From: a virus
IMG/VR virus record: IMGVR_UViG_3300045119_000270
Span: 1 to 20,861 of that record
Strand: one strand, 5' to 3'
DNA length: 20,861 bases
Part shown: positions 841 through 18,175 of the stretch, piece after piece
How positions within the stretch are numbered: the stretch's first letter is position 1
How the letters are laid out: each line of letters opens with the position of its first letter
The notes under the pieces: model-generated
What the model was told of the DNA's origin: nothing
The model's input: the letters and a program-made list of their open reading frames with translations, nothing else
Databases searched by the model: none
Program-made: the position numbers and the translations under genes

Positions 841-3291
841 CTATGCGGACTGAGCCTGCGGTTCTGGATTTGGATTCGATACGTCGCCTGGACCTTGCTG
901 GTCGGACTTGCTTTCCTTCGGAGGTCCTTGCGACTTCTGTTGATTCTTCTGGTCAGCTTGCATCGCCTGCAATTGCATCTGCTGAGCTTGCTGCATCTGG
1001 ATGATCTGATTGTGCTCCATGAAGTGAGCACGCACGTTCATCCATGCCGCTGGATTCTGCTCTTTCGTTGCCAGTCCTACGTCACCATTCAGCCAAGCCA
1101 AGCAAACCTCAGCCTCGATGCCATGATTGTCCACTTCAGGGTCAACCGGGACAGAGGACTGGAATTGCTCCTGACCAGACATAGGATCGACGCCCATGAC
1201 CGTCGGTTGGCCCTGAAGCATCGTGGCGATTTCGTAGAGCTGCTTGTTACGCGAGTCGTCTCCGGGGATGTAGAGGTCTGGCATCCCAATGAGTTCCGCA
1301 ACGAAGCTCGCGTTCTCAGGATGCATGAGAATCTCCCCAACCTGGGGGTCCTTCATGTTGATGAGTTGCAACAGCACGTCGCGCTTCTGTGCCCAGGAGA
1401 TTGGGAAGGCCTCTGAGGTTTCTGGTTCGATTTCTCCAACAGTTCCTTGCAGCTGCGACTTACGAATCCAGACGTTGATGAAGCTATCGCCTTGATTCTT
1501 GACCATCTTCTCGTCTTCCGTCATATTATCGGCGTAAGACTTGACGGCCTTGGCCATGACTTTCGACCACCATGACTTGAGGACGGTCCAGGTGCCGGAA
1601 AGTCGCTGGAGAGCTTGTGCCCTCGACAGTTCATATTCCCTAGCAGTTCCTGAGCCGCCCTCAAGCTGCCCACCGTAGATGGTGGGGAATGTTCCTAGGA
1701 CGAACTGAGCCACTCCATCAAGCCTGTCCGCGAACATCTCGACTTCTTGAGATAGGCTGGCTGCCTTAATGTCGTGAAACCCGGCCGAGAGATTCTGTCC
1801 AGACGGTGCCTTGGCCTGATTGACCATCCCAGGTCGAGCTTCTGATTTCGAGTAGTTTTCAAAATCAAGGACAGATGGATCAGCAAACGTCTCTGGTATC
1901 CCAAACTCGATGGTCTCCAAAGTGATGTTCGCTAGCTCGTTGGTCATGTCCTGAACCGGCACGAGCGACGCGCCCTCAGGCTCGGAGTGAATATGCTCGG
2001 AAAATGGCGAAAGAGTGGCCGTCCAGTGCTCATCGAGCTTGTCCTGGACAACTTCAACGATCAAATCGTCGTTGATGATGACCATGTAGAGGCCATCGGG
2101 ATATTGCACCTTGAGCTGCTTGACAATTGCGTCGTTGAAGCCGCCGTAGTAGTTGAAAGCCCAGGGACGAAGCCACATCCTCTGGACCGTGCAGATATTC
2201 TCCTGCCATTCACCATTGTAGCGCCGATCGTTACGCGCCCAACGCTCGATTGCGTCAGTATCGTAAGATGGCTTGATGAGATGGGCAAATTCAGGGTAGG
2301 TTTCCTGAATCTTTCCGATTGGTTCCTCAGTTACGAACCGAAGATACGGTGTATCGTCGAGTTTTGAGATGTAATGGGGCACTTCGACGTGCAAAGGCCC
2401 AAAACATGCCAAGATTTCGCGAGATTTCGGCTTGTCGTCGTATCCAACGATGGTCGGGAACGTCTCCTGCTGGTCCTGACTCTCGGGTGGGAGGGTCAGA
2501 CCGCAGTTTGGACACGTCTGAGGCGGTTTTGGAGGCGCATTTGGGTCCGTTACGGTCTCTTGACCCTGGGGCGCGCCGCATGAAGGGCAGAAATAGGACC
2601 GATTAGTAACGCTTTGCTGTCCTGGGATGGGAACCTTAGTAGTTCCGAAGTCCTTCGACGTCTTTCGCTCGTTGTAAGCGAAGACAACTCCAGTATTATA
2701 GAGGAGATAGAGTGCGCGGAGGAAGAAAACGTCGGCCTGATTGTGCCGCTGTATCAGTTCAGAGATTTTGGAGTAGGCTTTCGCCGTCTCCACGTCGGAA
2801 GGGTTATCCGCATCGTCAGGGAAGAATCGGACAAAAGGAATTCCCGCAGCAATCGCAGAAATCCATGCCTGGCCATGAGCCTTGTAGATGTTGATGACCT
2901 TGGCGATAGCTTGAACATCTGTGTCCGCCTGCGGGTCCTCGAACGCCTGCGAGGAGCGGTCCTGATAGTCTCGATAGTCTCTGGCAATCGCGTCCCAATA
3001 GATGTATTGCAGGTTGTTCCAGTAGCACTCCAGCTTCTTCAGCTTCCGAACGAAAGCCTCTCGAACCGTCCGCTCCGGAACACAGAGCTTGTCCTTGATT
3101 CTCAGCAGCGCGTCGAGAACATCCTTCCCATAGACGTCCTCCGGGTCTTTCTCCTCTTGGTCTGGAGGTTCCTGCTGCTGGTCACCAACCGGCGGAGGTG
3201 CATCCCCCGGAACGATTGGAGGAGCGTCCGGTGGCAGCATTGGGTCAGGAAATGGCTGCTGCTGCGATGGGTCGATGGGAGGAGGATACAT
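841..3291 (-). CDS. Portal protein with zinc-ribbon insertion
   Basis: This 816-aa protein is the likely head-tail portal, which forms the ring at the capsid vertex through which DNA is packaged. It sits between the terminase/kinase-like genes and the scaffold-like gene, the normal place for a portal. The N-terminus (about 1-50) and C-terminus (about 740-816) are Pro/Gln-rich and probably disordered. The middle has the mixed helical layout of large portals, including a segment near residues 540-600 with Tyr-Gly-Gly and an Arg/Glu helix before paired Trp residues. Cys235, Cys238, Cys260 and Cys263 form two CxxC pairs, an apparent zinc ribbon within the body. The ATG follows the previous stop by one base and has only a weak ribosome site, so translation is probably coupled. 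Confidence 0.85.
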   Translation of the reverse strand: MYPPPIDPSQQQPFPDPMLPPDAPPIVPGDAPPPVGDQQQEPPDQEEKDPEDVYGKDVLDALLRIKDKLCVPERTVREAFVRKLKKLECYWNNLQYIYWDAIARDYRDYQDRSSQAFEDPQADTDVQAIAKVINIYKAHGQAWISAIAAGIPFVRFFPDDADNPSDVETAKAYSKISELIQRHNQADVFFLRALYLLYNTGVVFAYNERKTSKDFGTTKVPIPGQQSVTNRSYFCPSCGAPQGQETVTDPNAPPKPPQTCPNCGLTLPPESQDQQETFPTIVGYDDKPKSREILACFGPLHVEVPHYISKLDDTPYLRFVTEEPIGKIQETYPEFAHLIKPSYDTDAIERWARNDRRYNGEWQENICTVQRMWLRPWAFNYYGGFNDAIVKQLKVQYPDGLYMVIINDDLIVEVVQDKLDEHWTATLSPFSEHIHSEPEGASLVPVQDMTNELANITLETIEFGIPETFADPSVLDFENYSKSEARPGMVNQAKAPSGQNLSAGFHDIKAASLSQEVEMFADRLDGVAQFVLGTFPTIYGGQLEGGSGTAREYELSRAQALQRLSGTWTVLKSWWSKVMAKAVKSYADNMTEDEKMVKNQGDSFINVWIRKSQLQGTVGEIEPETSEAFPISWAQKRDVLLQLINMKDPQVGEILMHPENASFVAELIGMPDLYIPGDDSRNKQLYEIATMLQGQPTVMGVDPMSGQEQFQSSVPVDPEVDNHGIEAEVCLAWLNGDVGLATKEQNPAAWMNVRAHFMEHNQIIQMQQAQQMQLQAMQADQKNQQKSQGPPKESKSDQQGPGDVSNPNPEPQAQSA

Positions 3292-3292
3292 C

Positions 3293-4681
3293 TTATCTCA
3301 TGTGCCTTGTGATGAAGTCCTCAAAAGCTGGAGGAAGCTTCGAGACACGGTCCATGAAGTTACGCATGTAGGTGTCTCTGTTCCCGCTGGACATTTTCGC
3401 GTAGTCTAGATAAGGCCGTAGACTCTCAGCGTAGTCTGCCTCGGGAATCTGAGTCGCTGCGTGCGCAAGTTCACGATACTTGTTGGGGTCGGCAAATGGA
3501 TGAAGATCACCACCAGTTACCAAACCACTATACATGTCTCGCAAGCCGCCACCGGTCTTGGCAATGGACGCTGGCTCGATTACGTCTCGCATCCCACGCC
3601 CGATTGTAGGAATCCTATTGATACCTTTATCAACTCCTCGGAAGTCTCTCGCCTCAGGGTCAATCATGAACTGGCGCTCGCCGCGATCAACAACCCCACC
3701 AGTAGTGTCTGCTACATGCTGGGCCATCACCTGATTAGCAACGTCAGGATGGAGAGCTTTAGCCTTCTGCTCGGCAGTCATGTCGTCCCAACGGCCAAAC
3801 GAGGGGCCAAGCATTTCCTGAAGAGTCCCGCCCTCAGCAGTCTGTCGTGCGATAGGAGTCTTGCCACCAGTCATCAGACTAACAAGACGAGTTCCAGCTT
3901 CCTCTTCGGCGTTGTCACCAGCACCAGCATCCTTAAGGAGAAAGCGATTACCAGAACCCTTAGCCTCGTAGATTCGCTTCGGAGTGATGCCGCCAAGTCC
4001 GCCGCGTCCAAGATCGTAAACGTCCCCACCAGCAATAGACCTGAGAGTCGGGTGCTGAGGGTGAATGATTGCTCCCTGTGGAGAGACCGGGCCAGTTCTA
4101 GGGAGAGTCCTTATCGGGGGCGGTTCCTCAGCTTGCCGATAGAGTTCATCTTTCAGGTCTGCAATCATCTGCTCATGAGGGCCGGGATGGTCCTCAATGA
4201 ACTTCTGAGTCTCTTGGAAGCCACCGACACCACGATTCCACCGAGCCTTATCAATGATGTGACTCTCTGCTGGTGGGATGGCCTCACCGATTGAGTGCGC
4301 GATTTGGTTAACCTCAGGCTCGTAGCTTCCAGTGAGCGCCCGATTACCAAGTCCAAGGAATCGCTCGGCTGATTGGGCGTAGTCTTCGATGGGCCGACGC
4401 AGGAGATGCTGAGATTCACCGGGTGCGAGGACAATGCCGGGCATCGCGGCATTCATTATCTGGTCCTGAGGACTTCCAACCAGATTGTTGAACGTCTTCT
4501 CCGCCGCGTCGCCAAGATGGCCGACAAGGGGCAGCTCCACGTTGTTGAGCGCGTCCTTACCACGCTCCAACCACGTAGACGAACGCATTCTCGGCTTGTT
4601 CTCTCGGGAAGCCTCGGTATCGGGCGGTCCCCAGAGACGCGAGTATATGCTACGACTCGGTAGTGCTACTCTTGTTGGCAT
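3293..4681 (-). CDS. Kinase-like (HipA/PI3K-type fold) protein in the packaging module
   Basis: The 462-aa product has no obvious standard virion domain. Residues about 220-355 read like a divergent protein or lipid kinase: a Gly-rich stretch (about 224-231), RFLLK with Lys250 in the beta-3 position, a Glu cluster at 259-261 for the C-helix, then VDRGERQF with Asp332 as a catalytic-loop candidate, and VDKG with Asp351 as metal-binding candidate. HipA and PI3K-like enzymes usually have Asn where this protein has Gln337, so activity is uncertain. The N-terminal 200 residues are unassigned. The gene overlaps the preceding coiled-coil gene by 32 bp and ends one base before the portal. No strong ribosome site precedes the ATG at 4681; Met32 is an alternative start. 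It could be an internal virion protein delivered to the host. The kinase assignment is inference from motifs. Confidence 0.55.
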   Translation of the reverse strand: MPTRVALPSRSIYSRLWGPPDTEASRENKPRMRSSTWLERGKDALNNVELPLVGHLGDAAEKTFNNLVGSPQDQIMNAAMPGIVLAPGESQHLLRRPIEDYAQSAERFLGLGNRALTGSYEPEVNQIAHSIGEAIPPAESHIIDKARWNRGVGGFQETQKFIEDHPGPHEQMIADLKDELYRQAEEPPPIRTLPRTGPVSPQGAIIHPQHPTLRSIAGGDVYDLGRGGLGGITPKRIYEAKGSGNRFLLKDAGAGDNAEEEAGTRLVSLMTGGKTPIARQTAEGGTLQEMLGPSFGRWDDMTAEQKAKALHPDVANQVMAQHVADTTGGVVDRGERQFMIDPEARDFRGVDKGINRIPTIGRGMRDVIEPASIAKTGGGLRDMYSGLVTGGDLHPFADPNKYRELAHAATQIPEADYAESLRPYLDYAKMSSGNRDTYMRNFMDRVSKLPPAFEDFITRHMR

Positions 4682-4994
4682 TGTCTACTTTATCGGCCTG
4701 TCTTACCCTTTCTTCCCACGCTTCTCTCTCAATTTTCGCAGCCTTTCTTGCAAACTTTTCTTCGAGCTCGGCTTGTTTACGACTCCAGGGGACTCGACTC
4801 TTCCTAATCGAGCCCTCAAATTCTTTGATCGGACCTCGTATCTCGTGTTTGGGGGCATTTCGCTCTACTTCTGCGTTGAGAAAGTCCCTCAACATCTCTA
4901 CTTCTTCTTCGAGAACTGAGATTGTGACCTTTCGAGCGTTGCAAGCGTCACATTCATTTGTTCGCAGACTGAACAAATTAGCGAAGAAGCCCAC
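4650..4994 (-). CDS. Small coiled-coil protein with CxxC, unknown function
   Basis: This 114-aa protein starts at a GTG (4994) with GGAGG four bases upstream and overlaps the end of the terminase gene by 17 bp. It begins with a short hydrophobic segment (FFANLFSL), followed by a CDAC pair and then two long charged helices (about 27-45 and 70-100) that should form coiled coils. Small proteins of this layout are often found between terminase and portal in podovirus-like genomes, but I do not recognise a named family. Translational coupling to the terminase suggests a role in packaging or head assembly. The function is unknown. Confidence 0.75.
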   Translation of the reverse strand: MGFFANLFSLRTNECDACNARKVTISVLEEEVEMLRDFLNAEVERNAPKHEIRGPIKEFEGSIRKSRVPWSRKQAELEEKFARKAAKIEREAWEERVRQADKVDNANKSSTTES

Positions 4995-6603
4995 GGAACC
5001 TCCGATGCCTCTGAACAGATGTCACCGTCTTTGCTTTCGACTCCAGATGCTCCATCTGTCGGTGCAATCTGGTCCAGTCTTGCGTCTCGGCGAAGGATTT
5101 CATGATTCCACCAAGAGCCTGCATTTTCTGGTCTCGACTCCAGACCAGTCGAATGTATCTGTCAACCTCTTTTAGCAGGTAACGGCCACCATCGTAGGGG
5201 TCATCACCCTGGAATTCGGCTACATCCTCGACCACTTCGCCATCTTTGTTGTCGTAAATGCAGATGGGTATGGTCTTGATGAACTCCTTGCACGTATCGA
5301 ACACCTGAAGTCTCGGAAGATTCGTCTCTGGAGGCTCAGGAGTAAACACATCCTGATATTTCTTCAGAGCGTCTGTTCCGAAGTTCCGGTATATGTATTG
5401 CGCCCTCTCGTCCGAGTATCCATCTGCAGGCATATACTTCGGTGGTTTCGGCATCCACCGAAGGAATGAGTGCATGAGCATCTTCCCACCTAGACGGTCA
5501 TTGTCGGCTTGTGCGGGTCTGAAGCCTGATGCTGCTGTGAACTGCTCGGCGATTGTGAGCTTGTCGCCCCGATGATTCCAAGCAGACGGGTCCAATACGA
5601 CCGAGTGAATCTCGTGTCGTTCGTGCTGAGAGAGTCTGGCAACGTCGGCTCCCCATACTTCGATGTTTTGCTTGTCCTTAGCGTATTCCCGATAGAGGAA
5701 AACACGCGAGTCAGGAGCGACCGCAGCCCAGCCAGCCCATGTCTTTGCGGTGTAGCCCCAATCGATGCCGAGAATTCGTGGCCACCAATCGGGGATATCG
5801 AAGGGTTGTACGACGTGGACAGCATTGGCTGGTTCTGTAGCTCGACGGAAGTCTCTCCACTCTGAGAAGACCTGTCCGGAAAATACATACCAGTCGCCAT
5901 CTTTCTTGGCGCGGCGCTCGGCCTCTGGAAGTATTTCGAGGCGCCATGCGTATCCGGGGTCGGCCTCGTTGAGATAGGGATTGTCGTCGAGTTTCGCCGG
6001 GATAAAGATGCGCGAAGTTCGACTTGCGCGGTCGAAAATGATCTTGTAGCCATCACGTGCCGGGTCCACAAATCGTTCTCTGACCCAGACGTGGCCTTGG
6101 TTGCCTGGATTGCTTGCAGATCGTACAACAGGGGGTAGGCTCGGTTCGGAACTACGGACGCGGGATGTGACAAAGGAGTAGACGAACCACTTGAATGAAG
6201 TAAGCTCGTCGAACGCCGCGTAATGATACTCCGTAGTGTCATGGCGTCTAGCGTGCTTTTCCTTTTCGAGGTAGCTCGCCCTGATTACCGCGCCGCTCGG
6301 AAACTTCCAGTAGTGCTTCGCCTCGTTGAAGACTGCTCCTACTAACTTGTAGAAGCGGTCCGCACGAGGCATGAGACTTTCTTCAAGCTGAGGAAAAGTC
6401 TCGCGAAATAAGATGCCGTGAAACTTCGGGTGCAGGTGCCAGCCTCTGAGGATTGGGAGCATTATGAGAAGCTCCGATTTCCCTCCTCCCGCGGCACCTC
6501 CGTATAAAGCCTCGAAAATCGAATCCGGAATCTCGAGAAACTTTCTCTGTTTCTCGTGCGGCTTCCAAATCTGCGTGAAACGGTCGACGACTTGGATACC
6601 CAT
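4978..6603 (-). CDS. terL: Terminase large subunit (packaging ATPase/nuclease)
   Basis: This 541-aa enzyme pumps DNA into the procapsid and cuts the concatemer. The ATPase part has a Walker A GGAAGGGKS at 35-43, Walker B AAFDE at 129-133 (Asp132, Glu133) and an ASN coupling motif at 163-165. The nuclease part has the RNase H-like acidic residues Asp281 in GIDWG, Asp338 in VVLDPS and the DDPYDGGRY cluster at 468-474. The opening WKPHEKQRKFL is the usual adenine-pocket region, so the N-terminus is intact, and the length is normal. Only the ATG at 6603 can start it: an in-frame TAG lies 15 bases upstream, no Shine-Dalgarno is seen, and a U-rich stretch plus a GC hairpin come directly before it. 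Confidence 0.97.
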   Translation of the reverse strand: MGIQVVDRFTQIWKPHEKQRKFLEIPDSIFEALYGGAAGGGKSELLIMLPILRGWHLHPKFHGILFRETFPQLEESLMPRADRFYKLVGAVFNEAKHYWKFPSGAVIRASYLEKEKHARRHDTTEYHYAAFDELTSFKWFVYSFVTSRVRSSEPSLPPVVRSASNPGNQGHVWVRERFVDPARDGYKIIFDRASRTSRIFIPAKLDDNPYLNEADPGYAWRLEILPEAERRAKKDGDWYVFSGQVFSEWRDFRRATEPANAVHVVQPFDIPDWWPRILGIDWGYTAKTWAGWAAVAPDSRVFLYREYAKDKQNIEVWGADVARLSQHERHEIHSVVLDPSAWNHRGDKLTIAEQFTAASGFRPAQADNDRLGGKMLMHSFLRWMPKPPKYMPADGYSDERAQYIYRNFGTDALKKYQDVFTPEPPETNLPRLQVFDTCKEFIKTIPICIYDNKDGEVVEDVAEFQGDDPYDGGRYLLKEVDRYIRLVWSRDQKMQALGGIMKSFAETQDWTRLHRQMEHLESKAKTVTSVQRHRRFRGLLR

Positions 6604-6612
6604 GAGAAAAGA

Positions 6613-6656
6613 AGGGGGCTACTGAGGCGTCATCCCGGTCGGAATCGTAGCCCCCT
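6613..6656 (-). terminator. Terminator-like hairpin directly before terL
   Basis: A perfect 10-bp inverted repeat (AGGGGGCTAC at 6613-6622, its complement at 6647-6656) with a 24-nt loop is followed on the minus strand by TCTTTTCTC and then the terL ATG. A second small hairpin (5-bp arms, 6659-6673) overlaps the stop of the upstream gene. By form this is a rho-independent terminator, although the T-run is interrupted by C and the loop is long. It could instead be a partial attenuator or RNA processing site that sets terL expression. Confidence 0.6.
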
Positions 6657-6666
6657 CTGGAGTTAC

Positions 6667-7233
6667 CTACTCCAGCTTCTTCGGCGGTGCAGGAGGAGCC
6701 GGCGCGTGCTGCGTGGCCACCTTCCGCTCCTCCGCCGACTTCTGACCGATGGTGTAGAACACCTTGTCCCTGAAGGACAGCGTCGTCGGCTTGTCTCGCC
6801 CCTCGTTCGCTGCCTTCGCCAGAATCGCGTTGTCGAGAGCCTCGCCGGTCAGTCTCTCGTCTCCGGGATCGACTGCTCCGGTGATGAGCAGAAGCTCTGC
6901 CGTCTCGGGCGGAGGAATCACGATGCCAAGCGCCTCGGCCAGGTTCGACGGAAGCACGTATTTCCCGCCGTCCGACAGCTCGTAGATACCGTCGCCCCCA
7001 AGAGCCTTGAACAGGCCGCGGCTCTCGATGTCCTCGATGGCGATCGGTCCACCGTAGCCGAGGAACTCACGTGAGTTGACGACCGTGCACTGCTGCGTGG
7101 GGAGGACTTCCTTGCCGATGCTGACAACTCCCTCGGCGTTCGCCTTCAGGTCCTTCAGCTCGATTGCCTTCTCCACGATTGGCTTCGCGGGAGGCGGGGT
7201 TGCCATCGTTGGTGCTGGTGTCGCTGTTGCCAT
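6667..7233 (-). CDS. Unassigned 188-aa phage protein
   Basis: The start ATG at 7233 has AGGAG seven bases upstream, and the gene begins 9 bases after the stop of the next upstream gene. Both ends are Ala/Pro/Thr-rich and probably disordered (about 1-17 and 172-188). The middle (about 20-170) is a compact mixed region with VLPTQQCTVVNSREF near 43-57 and a GGKYVLPSNLAEALGI segment near 89-104. I do not recognise a family. Its place in the late operon, just before the terminase, suggests a virion or assembly protein. The terminator-like hairpin lies just after its stop. Confidence 0.8.
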   Translation of the reverse strand: MATATPAPTMATPPPAKPIVEKAIELKDLKANAEGVVSIGKEVLPTQQCTVVNSREFLGYGGPIAIEDIESRGLFKALGGDGIYELSDGGKYVLPSNLAEALGIVIPPPETAELLLITGAVDPGDERLTGEALDNAILAKAANEGRDKPTTLSFRDKVFYTIGQKSAEERKVATQHAPAPPAPPKKLE

Positions 7234-7242
7234 TGCTCTCTC

Positions 7243-7776
7243 CTATCTCATCATGAACGGATTGGGACGCTGCATCCACGGTGGCACCTGTCCCTGCGGT
7301 GGCATTCCGGGTGGTGGTCCTTGTGGAGGAGGCACTGCTTGTGGAGGCGGACCGGCCGACTGCATTGCTCTTGCTACGTTCGACATTGACTGGAGAGGTC
7401 CTGCTCCTTGTGCTCCAGGTGCTCCTCCTGGTGCCAATCCAGGAGCGAACTGGGCAGGTGTGCCCATTCCTGCTGCACCCATCGTCCTGATGCGCGGGTC
7501 CGGCATCGGGTTCTGTGGGCGCATCATCGGAGGCTGAGGAGGTGGCATAGGAGCTGGTGCTCCTACTTGAGGAGCGAAACCCGGACCAAGAGGGCCAGCC
7601 ATCCCTCCTGGACCGGGCAACGTTCCACCAAGAGGACCTGCACCTGGGCGGAATTGAGCGGTGCTCTGGTTCCCTTGTCCAGTTGCGCCTCTGAACGAGC
7701 CGCCCTGTCCAGCGATGGGGGACTGCATTTGGGGATTCGATGAGACCATCCCCATACGGCGTTGGTTCTGAGGCAT
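7243..7776 (-). CDS. Pro/Gly/Gln/Met-rich low-complexity protein
   Basis: This 177-aa protein is almost entirely Gly, Pro, Gln, Met and Ala with very few charged residues, so it is expected to be disordered. The start is supported by GGGAG eight bases upstream of the ATG at 7776. That ribosome site overlaps the stop of the PEP-CTERM gene before it, and the stop here is followed within 10 bases by the next start. No domain is recognised. Such proteins in phage late operons can be virion linkers or surface proteins, but nothing in the sequence fixes the role. Confidence 0.75.
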   Translation of the reverse strand: MPQNQRRMGMVSSNPQMQSPIAGQGGSFRGATGQGNQSTAQFRPGAGPLGGTLPGPGGMAGPLGPGFAPQVGAPAPMPPPQPPMMRPQNPMPDPRIRTMGAAGMGTPAQFAPGLAPGGAPGAQGAGPLQSMSNVARAMQSAGPPPQAVPPPQGPPPGMPPQGQVPPWMQRPNPFMMR

Positions 7777-7788
7777 CTGGCTATCTCC

Positions 7789-8574
7789 CTACAACGAGAA
7801 TTTCCTGCGCGCCGCACCGATCATGCCGAGAAGTCCAGAACCGAGAAGAATCATCGAACCCGGCTCCGGAGTCGGGAAGCTCTGCGGATTCGGACTGCAT
7901 CCAACGCACGGTGGCGTAGGACCGTCACGGAAGGCCCATTCCTCGAACGTGCCTTGTGACTCGTAGCCAGTCTCGTGTCCGAACGAGGTATACATGTAGA
8001 AGTAAGTCCCAGGGTTCGCCCCAAACACGCTGGTAGGCACGTAGAAGAACAGGTCGCTGTTCCCATTGCCACCACCGAACAGGTCGTAGTCGAGATGCAC
8101 TGACCCGTTCATCGTGTAGACCGGACTAGTCGGGCATCCATCGGCTTGCACCAGAGATGCGGTGTTACTGGTGCAGAGTTCGATGCGATCAAGCGTCAAC
8201 AGATTCATGTCGTTGCCGCTCGGTTCGCCGAGGTCGAGCATGAACTCGTAGTAGTTCGTGCCGCCGATGTTGAAGATGTTGTCGAGATCAGAGAACAGGA
8301 CATCGTGCGTCCAGATGCCGCCAATCTCATCGTTCAGAAAATCCTGCGACGGCGCACCGGTATTGTGACCATCCTCCGTCGGCTTCTGGTGGATACGAAC
8401 AAAGGGATTGAACACACCGGTGCCAGAGGGCTGAACTGAAACGGTCGAGAAGATTGCCCCACTGTATACCGCCCCTGTGCAGCCAGACTGACAGTTGAGC
8501 GGGATTGGTGTAGCCATCACCGAGGGCGCGGCAAAGAGTAGTGCAAGCAGGCTAAGCTGGGGAACCTTTTTCAT
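7789..8574 (-). CDS. PEP-CTERM secreted protein (beta-sandwich type)
   Basis: The 261-aa product has a Sec signal peptide (about 1-21, ending VMA before TPIP) and a full C-terminal PEP-CTERM signal: PTPEPGS, a hydrophobic helix (LLGSGLLGMIGA) and a basic end ARRKFSL. In bacteria this tail directs proteins to exosortase (EpsH/Xrt) for cleavage and surface or exopolysaccharide attachment. The body matches a known layout of bacterial PEP-CTERM proteins: NPFVRI near 56, WTHDVL near 88, YEFMLDLGEP near 108 and FEEWAF near 215. It starts at 8574 with AGGAG seven bases upstream. No exosortase gene is seen here, so host machinery must process it. Presence in a phage late operon is unusual and suggests acquisition from a host. 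Confidence 0.9.
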   Translation of the reverse strand: MKKVPQLSLLALLFAAPSVMATPIPLNCQSGCTGAVYSGAIFSTVSVQPSGTGVFNPFVRIHQKPTEDGHNTGAPSQDFLNDEIGGIWTHDVLFSDLDNIFNIGGTNYYEFMLDLGEPSGNDMNLLTLDRIELCTSNTASLVQADGCPTSPVYTMNGSVHLDYDLFGGGNGNSDLFFYVPTSVFGANPGTYFYMYTSFGHETGYESQGTFEEWAFRDGPTPPCVGCSPNPQSFPTPEPGSMILLGSGLLGMIGAARRKFSL

Positions 8575-8768: not shown

Positions 8769-9443
8769 TTACCGGCCGACGAAACGACGCTTGAACCGTC
8801 GAGCACCGAACATCAGTCCAGTTCCGAGGAGCACAAGGCTCGTTGGTTCTGGGACTGCTGAGATTTGTGCATCAGCTGTGCCTGTGAACGACGCATTGAA
8901 GGAGCCAATGGTCGTGTGCGACACCCCGCCGACCAGATACGTGTCGGTGTGGAACGGCGGGGTTACGTTACTAAGCGACAGAGAGAAGCTCTCCGGGTCG
9001 ATTAGTGCTGCCAGGTCACTCGTTAGCACCAGAGGACCGAGCAGCCCGTTGTTGCTCGTCAGGACTGAGTTGGTCCCACCGATCGTTCCAAGTTGCAGTG
9101 AGCCACCGAATGTCCCATCGAGGTAATCGAAGGTATCGGCTGCGTTGTGCAGGGAGAACGACCCAGCGAACGGCTGTGCAATCAGCGGACCGAACGCCTG
9201 AGCATCGCCGGTGCTCGTCGCGTTCAGAGTCAGCACCGCGTTCGCATCGAGCGCACCCATGAAGATCTGGGTGATGTTGACGCCAGTGTTGATGCTGATG
9301 GCCGTGGTTCCGTTGCCAAGGTCGGTGGCAACGAACTGGTTCGTCGCTGTGTTCCCGAACGAGGTGATGGTCGTCGCCTTCGCCGCTGGAACTACGAGCA
9401 GAGCAAGGCTGAGGAGCAGGGGAAGAACTCGGGCTGGTTTCAT
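8769..9443 (-). CDS. PEP-CTERM secreted protein
   Basis: The 224-aa product has a Sec signal peptide (about 1-23, ending AKA before TTIT), a Ser/Thr/Asn/Gly-rich body predicted to be beta-rich and almost free of Cys, and a C-terminal PEP-CTERM signal: VPEPTS, hydrophobic LVLLGTGLMFGA, then the basic RRFKRR. It starts at 9443 with AGGAG seven bases upstream. The body shows no similarity I can name and is clearly different from the other PEP-CTERM protein here, so the two are not a recent duplication. It is expected to be exported and processed by a host exosortase and to sit on the cell surface or in the extracellular matrix. Confidence 0.88.
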   Translation of the reverse strand: MKPARVLPLLLSLALLVVPAAKATTITSFGNTATNQFVATDLGNGTTAISINTGVNITQIFMGALDANAVLTLNATSTGDAQAFGPLIAQPFAGSFSLHNAADTFDYLDGTFGGSLQLGTIGGTNSVLTSNNGLLGPLVLTSDLAALIDPESFSLSLSNVTPPFHTDTYLVGGVSHTTIGSFNASFTGTADAQISAVPEPTSLVLLGTGLMFGARRFKRRFVGR

Positions 9444-10467: not shown

Positions 10468-10595
10468 TCGCCCCACTTGCCTTTGTGGTCCTTGGGTCGA
10501 CGGAAGCCGAACCAGGGCTTGAATATCGGTGCGTGCCAGAGTAGAAGGATTACGCACAAGAGAATGATGGCGATGGCTACGTTTCCGGTAGTCAC
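10464..10595 (-). CDS. 43-aa membrane protein, holin-like size
   Basis: A GTG at 10595 overlaps the stop of the cold-shock gene as GTGA, with GGAG seven bases upstream. The 43-aa product has one transmembrane helix at about 6-21 (VAIAIILLCVILLLWH), then a Trp/Phe-containing segment and a basic hydrophilic tail. A longer reading upstream in the same frame would overlap the cold-shock gene and is not needed. Small one-helix proteins next to another tiny membrane protein could be a holin-type lysis pair. There is no endolysin nearby in this window to support this. Confidence 0.6.
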   Translation of the reverse strand: MTTGNVAIAIILLCVILLLWHAPIFKPWFGFRRPKDHKGKWGE

Positions 10596-10888
10596 GCCAT
10601 TCTCCGAATCTCGATTGCGCGCGGCCCCTTCGGAGCCTCTATCTTCAGGAACTCTACTCGGTCGCCGACTTCGAGTTCGGAGAATCTGCACGAAGTCTTT
10701 TGCAGTGCGGTCCAGTGAAAGAAGTAGTCCTGTCCGTCATTCCCGGCGATGAATCCAAATCCCTCTTTCATCTTCCGGACTACTCCACTTTCGGGAACTG
10801 CCCGCGCCGCGCCTTCTGACGAGATTGACTCCTGCTCGCGAGCTTCATGACCTTCTGACAGTCTTGAATTATTGCGTCCGTTAACCAT
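10592..10888 (-). CDS. Cold-shock-domain protein
   Basis: The C-terminal two thirds of this 98-aa protein form a cold-shock OB fold: SGVVRKMKEGFGFI holds the RNP1-like GFGFI, and DYFFHWTAL the RNP2-like aromatic segment, followed by the closing strands VGDRVEF and RAIEIRRM. Such domains bind single-stranded RNA or DNA, often as RNA chaperones. The first 30 residues are an Arg/Ser/Glu-rich extension absent from simple Csp proteins. The start at 10888 is chosen because GGAGG lies 6-7 bases upstream; a start ten codons earlier would overlap the previous gene by 38 bp instead of 8. Its place near the head of the late operon suggests it acts on phage late RNA. Confidence 0.88.
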   Translation of the reverse strand: MVNGRNNSRLSEGHEAREQESISSEGAARAVPESGVVRKMKEGFGFIAGNDGQDYFFHWTALQKTSCRFSELEVGDRVEFLKIEAPKGPRAIEIRRMA

Positions 10889-11564
10889 GCTGCGCCTCCG
10901 TCGGCTTTGGTTCGTCAACTACGCCTTCGATAACCTTCGTCTCCGGTCGTTCCTCTCCTACCTCGACACGCTCGTATTCAGATTCCTCTTTCACTGGCGG
11001 ACGGAACATGTGGAAGTGCACGTTCTGATCAGCCTGCATCTCCTTCGGTAGCATCTTCTCAGCGATGGTTGCGACTTGCACTCCAATGTGAGACAGCTCT
11101 CTGGCCTTGGTAACACTCTTGATCTTCGTCTCGTCCAGACATTCCATGATGGTATTGAGACGGTCGAAAGCCAGATCGCGAATCTTAGTCCTCTGGCCCT
11201 CGATGAGACGAGTGAGAGTCTGCTCGGTGCCGTTGTGACTCTGAGTCTCCTTGTCCGTCATCAACCGAATGTGGTCAGGTTGCTTCTGGAAGAGTTGCGC
11301 CGCTAAGTCCTTCCCGGCCAGTTTGCCGACTATCACGGCGTCAGCTGCTTCTTGGCGAGTCAGGATGGGACCTGTAGCGCGGCGCGGTCTCCTCACCGCT
11401 GCCTCAACCTGTGACTGCATCGCCGGATCAATGCAATCTTCAGGTGCGGCCGGTATCTGAGGTTCCAGAGATACTTCGTCGTAATCGGACTCCCGCTGCA
11501 CCCGGTTCAACAGGTTCCGATTGCTGTTCAGGCGAATGTCTCCGTCTTCCTCGCTAATCCACAT
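10881..11564 (-). CDS. Unassigned 227-aa first gene of leftward operon
   Basis: This is the first gene after the leftward promoters, 227 aa. Residues about 60-100 contain a helical region TRQEAADAVIVGKLAGKDLAAQLF, followed by long charged helices to about 180 and an acidic Glu/Pro/Val-rich tail. No ribosome site is clear before the ATG at 11564, so initiation may be unusual. A helical DNA-binding-like first gene of a late operon could be a small terminase subunit, but it is not adjacent to the large subunit and I see no decisive motif. The function is therefore left open. Confidence 0.7.
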   Translation of the reverse strand: MWISEEDGDIRLNSNRNLLNRVQRESDYDEVSLEPQIPAAPEDCIDPAMQSQVEAAVRRPRRATGPILTRQEAADAVIVGKLAGKDLAAQLFQKQPDHIRLMTDKETQSHNGTEQTLTRLIEGQRTKIRDLAFDRLNTIMECLDETKIKSVTKARELSHIGVQVATIAEKMLPKEMQADQNVHFHMFRPPVKEESEYERVEVGEERPETKVIEGVVDEPKPTEAQHG

Positions 11565-16582: not shown

Positions 16583-18175
16583 ATGGCAACGATTCACAGA
16601 AAGTGCGAAACGTGCGGGAAGGTCGCTGAGGTCCAAGCTGAGTTCAAGCTTGACTTCGGGCGTCTATCCATCCTGAGATGCGGACACACAATCGTCTTCA
16701 AGGGCATCGAGAACAAGGCTGCCATCGAGATTACATCGCGCACTGGCAAGCAGCTCTATCCCTTCCAAGCCGAGACAATCGACTTCATGGAGCAAGCGGG
16801 TGGAGTCGTGCTGGTAGGCCACGAGATGGCGCTCGGCAAGACGATCTGCGGAACAGGCTTCGTAAAGCGTAACGCGAAGGACTGCTTCAACGTCCTGGTT
16901 CTCACCAAGTCGAGCACCAAGGTCAACTGGTTCAGAGAGTTCGTCGAATGGGCTGGCATCGTTGGTCAGGTCATCGACAGCAGCATCCAGCGACCGCATC
17001 TCGACATCTTCCCCGTAACCATCATGTCCATCGACCTGTTGGCGAGGGTCACTAGCAAGACCAAGACAATCAATGGTCGAGCGGGCGAACCCAACCCTGA
17101 CTATTGGGGCGAGGACATCTGGAAGCAGTACAACACAGTCATCATCGATGAGTGCCAGTCCATCAAGAACCCTGACTCACTGCGGAGTCGGGCGCTCAAG
17201 GACAATCTCGCTCACGTCAAGTATCGCATCCCGATGAGCGGCACCGCAATCAAGAACGCGGCGCACGAATACTTCACCGTCCTAAACTTCCTCCGTCCTG
17301 AGCTGTTCCCGAGCTACGCTGGATTCATCGAGAAGTGGACGATGGGACGGCATCTTCGCAGGTCGGAAGCGTTCCACGAGATGACGAAAGACTTCATCAT
17401 CCGTAAGACGCGAGCTGAGGTTCTTCCAGACCTCCCGAAGGTGGCTCGGAACTTCCGTCCAGTGCAGATGGACGACAAAGAGCTTATGCAGCGGTATGCA
17501 GATACCGTCGCTGAGTTCAACAAGTGGATGGACGAGAATGAAGAGAAGATGACGCCCGCTGGGTATGTCAATCTCCTCGCGTTCTTCGCCAAGATGCGCT
17601 ACATCACTGGTGTGGCGAAGGTTCCAGCGGCCATCGACTACATCGAGGAGTTCCTGCTTGAGTGCGACCGCAAGCTGGTCGTGTTCGTCCATCACAAGGA
17701 TGTGGCCCTCCTGCTGACCAGTCATCTCAACAAGATGATGGCTGAGATTGGGATGCCGAAGGTTCTGAGCTTCCACTCAGGGCTGGATGGTCAGGAGAGG
17801 CAAGGAGTCATCGACGAGTTCTGGAAGCCTGAGAACCGCATCATGATTGCTTCGACGTTGGCTGCTGGAGAGGGCATCAACCTCCAGTGCTGCTCGGACT
17901 GTCTGATGCTGGAACGTCAGTGGAATCCAGCGAACGAGGAGCAAGCGGAAGCTCGATTCCCGCGGCCGGGTCAGACGGCTGACAAGATCAACGCGACGTA
18001 TCTTACGGCGCTCGGGACAATCGACGAGTTCCTCAGCGAGCTTATCGAGCAGAAGCGTCGGGCGGTCACGGCAACTCTCGACAATCGGGAACTGACCTGG
18101 GAAGAAGAAGGACTGATGAGAGCACTTGCTGATGCCATCTGGAAGGCTGGCAACAAGAAGTGGAACTACAAGTAA
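16583..18175 (+). CDS. SNF2-type superfamily 2 helicase
   Basis: The 530-aa protein is a DNA-dependent ATPase of the SNF2/RapA branch. An N-terminal zinc site is formed by Cys8, Cys11, Cys33 and His35. The helicase core has YPFQ at 59-62 (Q-motif), Walker A HEMALGKT at 80-87 (usual form DEMGLGKT), Walker B DECQ at 189-192, motif III SGT at 219-221, motif V STLAAGEGINLQ at 424-435 and motif VI QAEARFPRPGQT at 454-465 with Arg458 and Arg461 as arginine fingers. All key residues are present and the length suits a compact phage enzyme. Similar phage helicases act in replication or recombination; substrate and polarity are unknown. Its own promoter and leader lie directly upstream. Confidence 0.93.
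   Translation: MATIHRKCETCGKVAEVQAEFKLDFGRLSILRCGHTIVFKGIENKAAIEITSRTGKQLYPFQAETIDFMEQAGGVVLVGHEMALGKTICGTGFVKRNAKDCFNVLVLTKSSTKVNWFREFVEWAGIVGQVIDSSIQRPHLDIFPVTIMSIDLLARVTSKTKTINGRAGEPNPDYWGEDIWKQYNTVIIDECQSIKNPDSLRSRALKDNLAHVKYRIPMSGTAIKNAAHEYFTVLNFLRPELFPSYAGFIEKWTMGRHLRRSEAFHEMTKDFIIRKTRAEVLPDLPKVARNFRPVQMDDKELMQRYADTVAEFNKWMDENEEKMTPAGYVNLLAFFAKMRYITGVAKVPAAIDYIEEFLLECDRKLVVFVHHKDVALLLTSHLNKMMAEIGMPKVLSFHSGLDGQERQGVIDEFWKPENRIMIASTLAAGEGINLQCCSDCLMLERQWNPANEEQAEARFPRPGQTADKINATYLTALGTIDEFLSELIEQKRRAVTATLDNRELTWEEEGLMRALADAIWKAGNKKWNYK

Follow-up and report, generated by a model that had tools for sequence, protein, structure and literature searches.

We analyzed a window of 20,861 bases from an uncultured phage, the whole of virus record IMGVR_UViG_3300045119_000270, and concentrated on a gene in its head/packaging module whose product is predicted to have a kinase-like fold. 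Open reading frame (ORF) analysis places this gene on the minus strand at 3293–4681, with 462 codons, an ATG start and a TAA stop. Along the minus strand the order is terminase, a small ORF of 114 amino acids (aa), the kinase-like gene and the portal gene, and these genes overlap or directly abut one another; the kinase-like ORF is a genuine gene within a closely packed string. The first-pass annotation had put it between terminase and portal. This order was indeed seen, and the terminase large subunit (4978–6603, minus strand, 541 aa) was recognized by profile (Pfam Terminase_6N, E = 5.7e-5; PHROG 979, E = 2.6e-46). Two details need amending: the portal gene (841–3291, minus strand, 816 aa), which starts directly after the kinase-like stop codon, had no match to any portal profile in Pfam or PHROGs and is therefore named by position, size and synteny, and the 114-aa ORF lies in the same interval, so that the kinase-like gene has this small ORF on one side and the portal gene on the other.

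The small ORF (4650–4994, minus strand, GTG start) has a Cys-x-x-Cys near its start and a charged C-terminal half, and overlaps both the terminase and the kinase-like gene. Its homologs in relatives are 48–58% identical to it, while the terminases of the same phages are 85–88% identical to the window's, so the small ORF diverges faster. In one relative, L009, the same gene string goes on with an acidic 410-aa ORF and a 425-aa ORF, which we take to be scaffold and major capsid proteins, neither having such a profile match. The small ORF itself matched no helix-turn-helix family at E ≤ 5 in the Pfam and PHROGs scans, and no search was aimed at a HipB antitoxin; a possible HipB-like antitoxin is the concern of the available text of PMC6293099.

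Seven distinct relatives of the kinase-like protein were found at the same genomic place, all reached only by synteny, through portal and terminase scans. Together with the window protein they form an alignment of eight sequences (A1). Full-length identity to the window protein was 41% for L028, which is cut off by the contig end near its C-terminus, and 26–29% for the other relatives; for the kinase-like domain (residues 205–462; 3296–4069, minus strand) it was 49–51% for L028 and 33–38% for the others. When three members were run by tblastn against 50,697 phage records, nothing matched; profiling genome contigs with the kinase alignment gave no relative, and scanning viral contigs with the window protein alone gave nothing. 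The kinase profile had matches in 8 of 32 records, and PF00454 (PI3/PI4 kinase) in none of 50 virus records.

Before any homolog was known, the first-pass annotation had singled out a Lys in RFLLK (beginning at residue 246), a Glu cluster, an Asp in VDRGERQF (from residue 331) and an Asp in VDKG (from residue 350). These choices held up well: Lys250 (3932–3934, minus strand), Asp332 and Asp351 (3629–3631, minus strand) are invariant in all eight distinct sequences. Out of 258 kinase-domain residues, 35 are invariant across the eight, and all three of the residues named beforehand fall among them (hypergeometric P = 0.0023). Glu260 of the Glu cluster (3902–3904, minus strand) belongs to the same set, as do Asp325, Arg333, Gln337, Phe338 and the whole of G349-V-D351-K-G353. 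The kinase domain is 26–72% identical pairwise, yet K250, E260, D325, D332, R333, Q337, F338 and D351 are unchanged. The marker residues of the protein kinase-like (PKL) fold, namely the beta-3 Lys, the helix-C Glu, the catalytic Asp and the metal Asp, are present as K250, E260, D332 and D351 in 8/8. Kinases usually carry an Asn five residues after the catalytic Asp. Here that Asn is absent and Gln337 stands in its place in every member, as the annotation had remarked for the window protein; the catalytic-loop motif, DRGERQ in the window (3671–3688, minus strand), reads DR[G/H]xxQF across the family.

A chance motif was also considered. The pattern, K, DRxxx[NQ] and [hydrophobic]DxG in the given order and spacing, was composed after the sequence had been seen; it arose in 9 of 20,000 shuffles of the kinase-like protein and in 30 of 2,831 stop-to-stop frames of at least 180 aa from the fetched loci. 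Of these 30 frames, one is the window's and one that of its copy L001; 27 belong to the family and come from relatives' loci (several of them overlapping fetches of one contig), and one is an antisense frame in L057. In view of the shuffles and of the invariance in homologs, the idea of a chance motif was dropped.

We modelled the window protein with AlphaFold2 on alignment A1. The mean predicted local distance difference test (pLDDT) score was 65.2 overall; the N-terminal part, residues 1–125 (4307–4681, minus strand), lay under 50, and most of residues 205–462 lay at 70–96. By DSSP the order is strands 221–226, 235–240 and 246–250, helix 254–270, helix 312–328, strands 338–341 and 346–349, and then C-terminal helices. 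In this model Lys250 ends the third strand, at the position of the beta-3 lysine; Glu260 lies in the next helix, at the alpha-C glutamate position; Asp332 lies in the loop after helix 312–328; and Asp351 follows strand 346–349, at the metal-binding, DFG-like position. The model contains the parts of a PKL fold, with an N-lobe sheet and helix C and a C-lobe with catalytic loop and helices.

Structure comparison pointed the same way. Foldseek against the PDB ranked PI3K gamma best (E = 3.5e-5), with CtkA at E = 1.3e-3, and VIA-align gave its highest score to PI4K-II beta (Z = 14.3; root-mean-square deviation 4.0, 217 aligned), followed by CtkA (13.7), CotH (12.2), PI4K-III beta (12.0), HipA (11.7; 4pu5/4pu3) and actin-fragmin kinase (11.2). 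The HipA-like fold was thus matched, ranking below PI4K-II and CtkA; families that do not appear in the match lists are not thereby excluded. We also modelled the last 338 residues of the most divergent relative, L011, from the alignment of all eight proteins (mean pLDDT 68.0); this second model matched PI4K-II beta at Z = 13.6, CtkA at Z = 12.8 and, by Foldseek, the PI3K-like kinase Tel1 at E = 5.2e-5. The two models are not fully independent, since both draw on the same eight proteins. Against the viral structures of BFVD, Foldseek found phage proteins at E = 3.6e-6 to 5.0e-4 with probability 1.00. The annotation had set out two findings that would speak against a kinase, a fold without the two-lobe core and homologs lacking the three residues; we looked for both and found neither. 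Because two models match PI4K-II, CtkA and PI3K folds and the residues are invariant, the protein is predicted to have a kinase-like fold of this kind in which an invariant Gln takes the place of the usual catalytic Asn.

Sequence libraries do not recognize the family. For none of the eight members did Pfam, PHROGs, NCBIfam or PADLOC point to a useful family; PHROGs returned four stray matches, each to a single member, with a best E of 0.03. At E ≤ 10 no member matched PF00454, for which the window also has no match, and none matched HipA_C (PF07804) or any other Pfam family, CotH (PF08757) included. The profile–profile search that had been proposed gave no support for a kinase family: hhalign against five CotH proteins reached a probability of 0.2, the same as a terminase decoy (0.2), so what we claim is a fold and an active site, and we claim no descent from any named family. 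With regard to CtkA, a profile search of PDB sequences returned only dethiobiotin synthetase (E = 0.8–0.97). HipA genes were represented by a single HipA_C locus. True HipA membership, judged against Pfam, and true CotH membership, judged against Pfam and by hhalign, were dropped for want of profile support.

The gene was carried by 10 of 12 close contigs, a group that counts the window and comprises contigs with both terminase and portal sequence and a terminase at least 80% identical. In the other two, L002 and L003, the small ORF is followed directly by the portal gene, and the kinase-like gene is absent from the whole record of L002 too. L002 and L004, of which L002 lacks the gene, have terminases 95% and portals 94% identical. 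Where the gene is present its C-terminal part can differ sharply: L009 and L011 are 93% identical in terminase, 83% in the small ORF and 94% in portal, and 32% in the kinase C-termini. DNA identity between these two is 66–87%, and mostly 70–87%, up to about 330 nucleotides into the gene, 37–59% for about 1,400 nucleotides and 94% at the portal start. The first ~120 residues are conserved and follow the flanks, with 69% identity between L009 and L011. A scan with this N-terminal part, looking for the same head with another tail, gave 11 loci, and the terminase scan had already turned up every contig concerned; these contigs carry the kinase-like family, except L033, which is cut off before the kinase part, and no non-kinase tail was found among them. 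The window and L028 form the other branch, which does not have the N-terminal sequence of the L004–L011 group.

The trees do not prove an exchange of C-termini. A clade of L009 and L011 had support of 100/100 for the N-terminal part and 99/95 for the portal. In the kinase-part tree L009 falls with L004, L005, L007 and L010 at 78/86, which is not starred and gives no firm support. A test on the portal tree rejected the five-row group (p = 4.8e-65); this is not specific to L011, because L002 and the window are excluded too. Exchange and very fast evolution would both fit, and under either the kinase tail turns over much faster than its neighbours. Among the closer relatives L004, L005, L007, L009 and L010 the kinase domain is under purifying selection, with NG86 ratios of nonsynonymous to synonymous substitution of 0.11–0.22 in 9 of 10 pairs; the tenth pair was saturated and left out.

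The product of this fast-changing gene, which keeps nearly the whole active site, is probably an enzyme aimed at the host. The reading we prefer, to which we give a probability of about 0.45, is that this head-module, kinase-fold protein would be packaged by means of its N-terminal part, ejected with the DNA and directed at a host target. We picture a late protein whose N-terminal part has little structure and whose C-terminal domain has a PI4K-II/CtkA/HipA-like kinase fold. The domain has most likely kept ATP binding and phosphate transfer: Lys250 and Glu260 would pair, Asp332 would be the catalytic base, and Asp351 and Gln337 would hold the metal, the Gln being an unusual ligand. We infer that the activity would fall on protein rather than lipid. 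Packaging and ejection are suggested by the head-module position and by the N-terminal part conserved in one group, which may attach the protein to head or portal; the protein would then enter the cell with the DNA and modify its target there. T4 Alt is an example of a packaged and ejected protein. A variable cassette is more what one would expect of an effector directed at the host than of a relic or an essential part of the head, and the quick turnover of the kinase part would be consistent with an arms race with hosts.

Several observations weigh against the packaged-kinase reading. At the sequence level, no kinase family is supported by the profile libraries or by profile comparison. The N-terminal part, which would serve delivery, matched no known family and is poorly modelled. 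N-terminal identity is ~31% between the window and L028 and ~20% between the window and the L004–L011 group, and with the window and L028 N-termini so divergent a shared anchor is seen only inside the L004–L011 group. For the kinase part an approximately unbiased (AU) test did not reject L009 and L011 together (p-AU = 0.21), because L011 is a long branch. Finally, since Asn is replaced by Gln in all eight sequences, the domain could be a pseudokinase. A more elaborate version is rather unlikely in our estimation: a virion-delivered polymorphic kinase, with a conserved N-terminal delivery part and exchangeable PI4K/CtkA-type tails with a Gln-type catalytic loop, in which related phages would swap or drop an injected kinase as hosts change, which would make it the phage equivalent of polymorphic toxins, perhaps acting on both lipids and proteins.

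The kinase could instead be active and made late in the producing cell, unpackaged, where it would modify the host or its envelope during assembly, for example to block superinfection. We regard this as possible, though doubtful. The fold and the residues suit it equally; the gene sits in a packaging/head module, which is usually expressed late; and it is variable and dispensable, like immunity genes. There is a precedent in the Gratiaviridae, whose HipA-like kinase, encoded between portal and capsid genes in the late module, is proposed in the available text of PMC8008677 to act late in the producing cell, for example by blocking superinfection. The place of our gene inside the tight terminase–portal string, and the N-terminal part conserved in L004–L011, which suggests a common binding partner in the virion, speak for the packaged protein instead, and neither is decisive. 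Besides an internal virion enzyme injected at infection, the annotation had raised a structural relic, that is, a head or portal structural or assembly protein with a dead kinase fold acting as scaffold or nucleotide sensor. We think this unlikely. The Gln found in 8/8 keeps it alive, and the position between terminase and portal and the presence of the gene at the same place in 10/12 close contigs agree with it. Against it stand the dispensability of the gene and the unvarying catalytic residues: two of the 12 close contigs keep its neighbours and have no copy of the gene, so assembly there can do without it; nothing in a scaffold would call for an unchanging Lys, Glu and pair of Asp at ~30% identity; and divergence is far quicker than in terminase and portal. 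Very unlikely, finally, is a kinase of small molecules or lipids that alters host membrane lipids or a metabolite. PI4K-II enzymes are the best fold matches in both models, though CtkA, which is a protein kinase, is within one Z unit. The rank of a fold match does not tell the substrate, no lipid-binding element was identified, and the PF00454 profile fails to recognize the protein.

Among known systems, PI4K-II (PI4K2A/B) is the closest in structure, and its catalytic motifs DRGxxN and IDNG resemble DRGERQ and VDKG here. The phage protein differs in having Gln for Asn, in sharing only 10–12% identity, in having no profile match and in being encoded in a phage head module. CtkA, a bacterial PI4K-like protein kinase (PDB 3akj/3akk/3akl), is tied with PI4K-II in fold, comparably compact in size and matched across the whole domain; identity is ~9–15%, CtkA is bacterial, and the phage protein has an extra N-terminal part. 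The BFVD matches are phage proteins with kinase-like folds, often inside much larger proteins (A0A6J5MJB0, “PI3-/4-kinase catalytic domain”; A0A6B9L6W7, an ADP-ribosyltransferase of Mycobacterium phage Onyinye; and proteins of Gordonia phages GodonK and Sixama), and at 11–14% identity they are likened by predicted fold alone. The Gratiaviridae share a HipA-like kinase among late head genes. By the description in the available text of PMC8008677, and by description rather than by sequence, theirs differs in its place: it is flanked by the portal and major capsid genes, and upstream of it are an ATPase and a glycosyltransferase. Our gene lies between terminase and portal, with neither of those between. 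The polyvalent-protein kinases of phages, in the accessible part of Iyer et al. 2017 (PMC5512222), belong to proteins for which packaging or transfer, and modification of host proteins, are predicted, with conflict-type turnover; these kinase domains have no C-terminal subdomain and occur in fusion with other domains. Our protein has a C-terminal helical lobe, and neither Pfam nor PHROGs found a second catalytic or other domain in it, the N-terminal part being poorly modelled, so two or more disparate domains are not seen; like polyvalent proteins, it is encoded among virion and packaging genes.

A kinase-like domain in the packaging module had been called unexpected. Kinase folds in phage head modules do have precedents in the polyvalent proteins and, in the available text of PMC8008677, the Gratiaviridae kinase, and to that extent the remark does not stand; otherwise it does. 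In the literature searched on phage PI3/PI4-type or virion kinases, PMC8008677 and PMC5512222 were the relevant papers, and others may be in print. New features here are the PI4K-II/CtkA-like kind of kinase fold lying between terminase and portal, a Gln that never varies, and, among near-identical phages, tails that diverge and a gene that is present in some and absent from others. Few phage kinases are understood, and the available text of PMC8008677 names only two characterised examples. The family described here escapes sequence libraries; its position in the packaging module is constant, and the change from Asn to Gln, seen in every member, is distinctive. If packaged, it would offer a direct route to a host protein or lipid phosphorylated by phage in the first minutes of infection, and could reveal whether Gln can serve in a kinase metal site.

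The space between terminase and portal was also inspected in distant relatives. It holds low-complexity ORFs in L013 and L014 and only a short ORF in L015 and L017. L134 has a 166-aa ORF there (4547–5044, plus strand) to which Pfam gave no identification and which, from its motifs, may be a papain-type enzyme. In L136 a frame of at least 1206 aa follows the terminase (4214–7831, plus strand), with weak similarity to an HD domain (E = 0.07), and the contig ends before the portal. This interval may serve more generally as a place for cargo, a suggestion that we do not use as proof.

Other genes of the window lie apart from this string. Just upstream of the terminase are two genes (7789–8574 and 8769–9443, both minus strand) whose products combine a signal-like stretch at the N-terminus with a PEP-CTERM sorting motif (PF07589, E = 4.5e-6 and 1.5e-5). 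Relatives of the 8769–9443 protein occur in L028, L040 and L041 at 49–59% identity. The two proteins are phage-encoded candidate exosortase substrates; judged by title and start of abstract, none of the literature matches listed for phage, PEP-CTERM and exosortase describes such substrates. The product of 10592–10918 (minus strand) resembles cold-shock proteins (phrog_729 cold shock protein, E = 5.5e-6) and is extended at its N-terminus. A helicase (16583–18175, plus strand; phrog_62 DNA helicase, E = 1.2e-76) is encoded on the other strand and does not belong to the head module.
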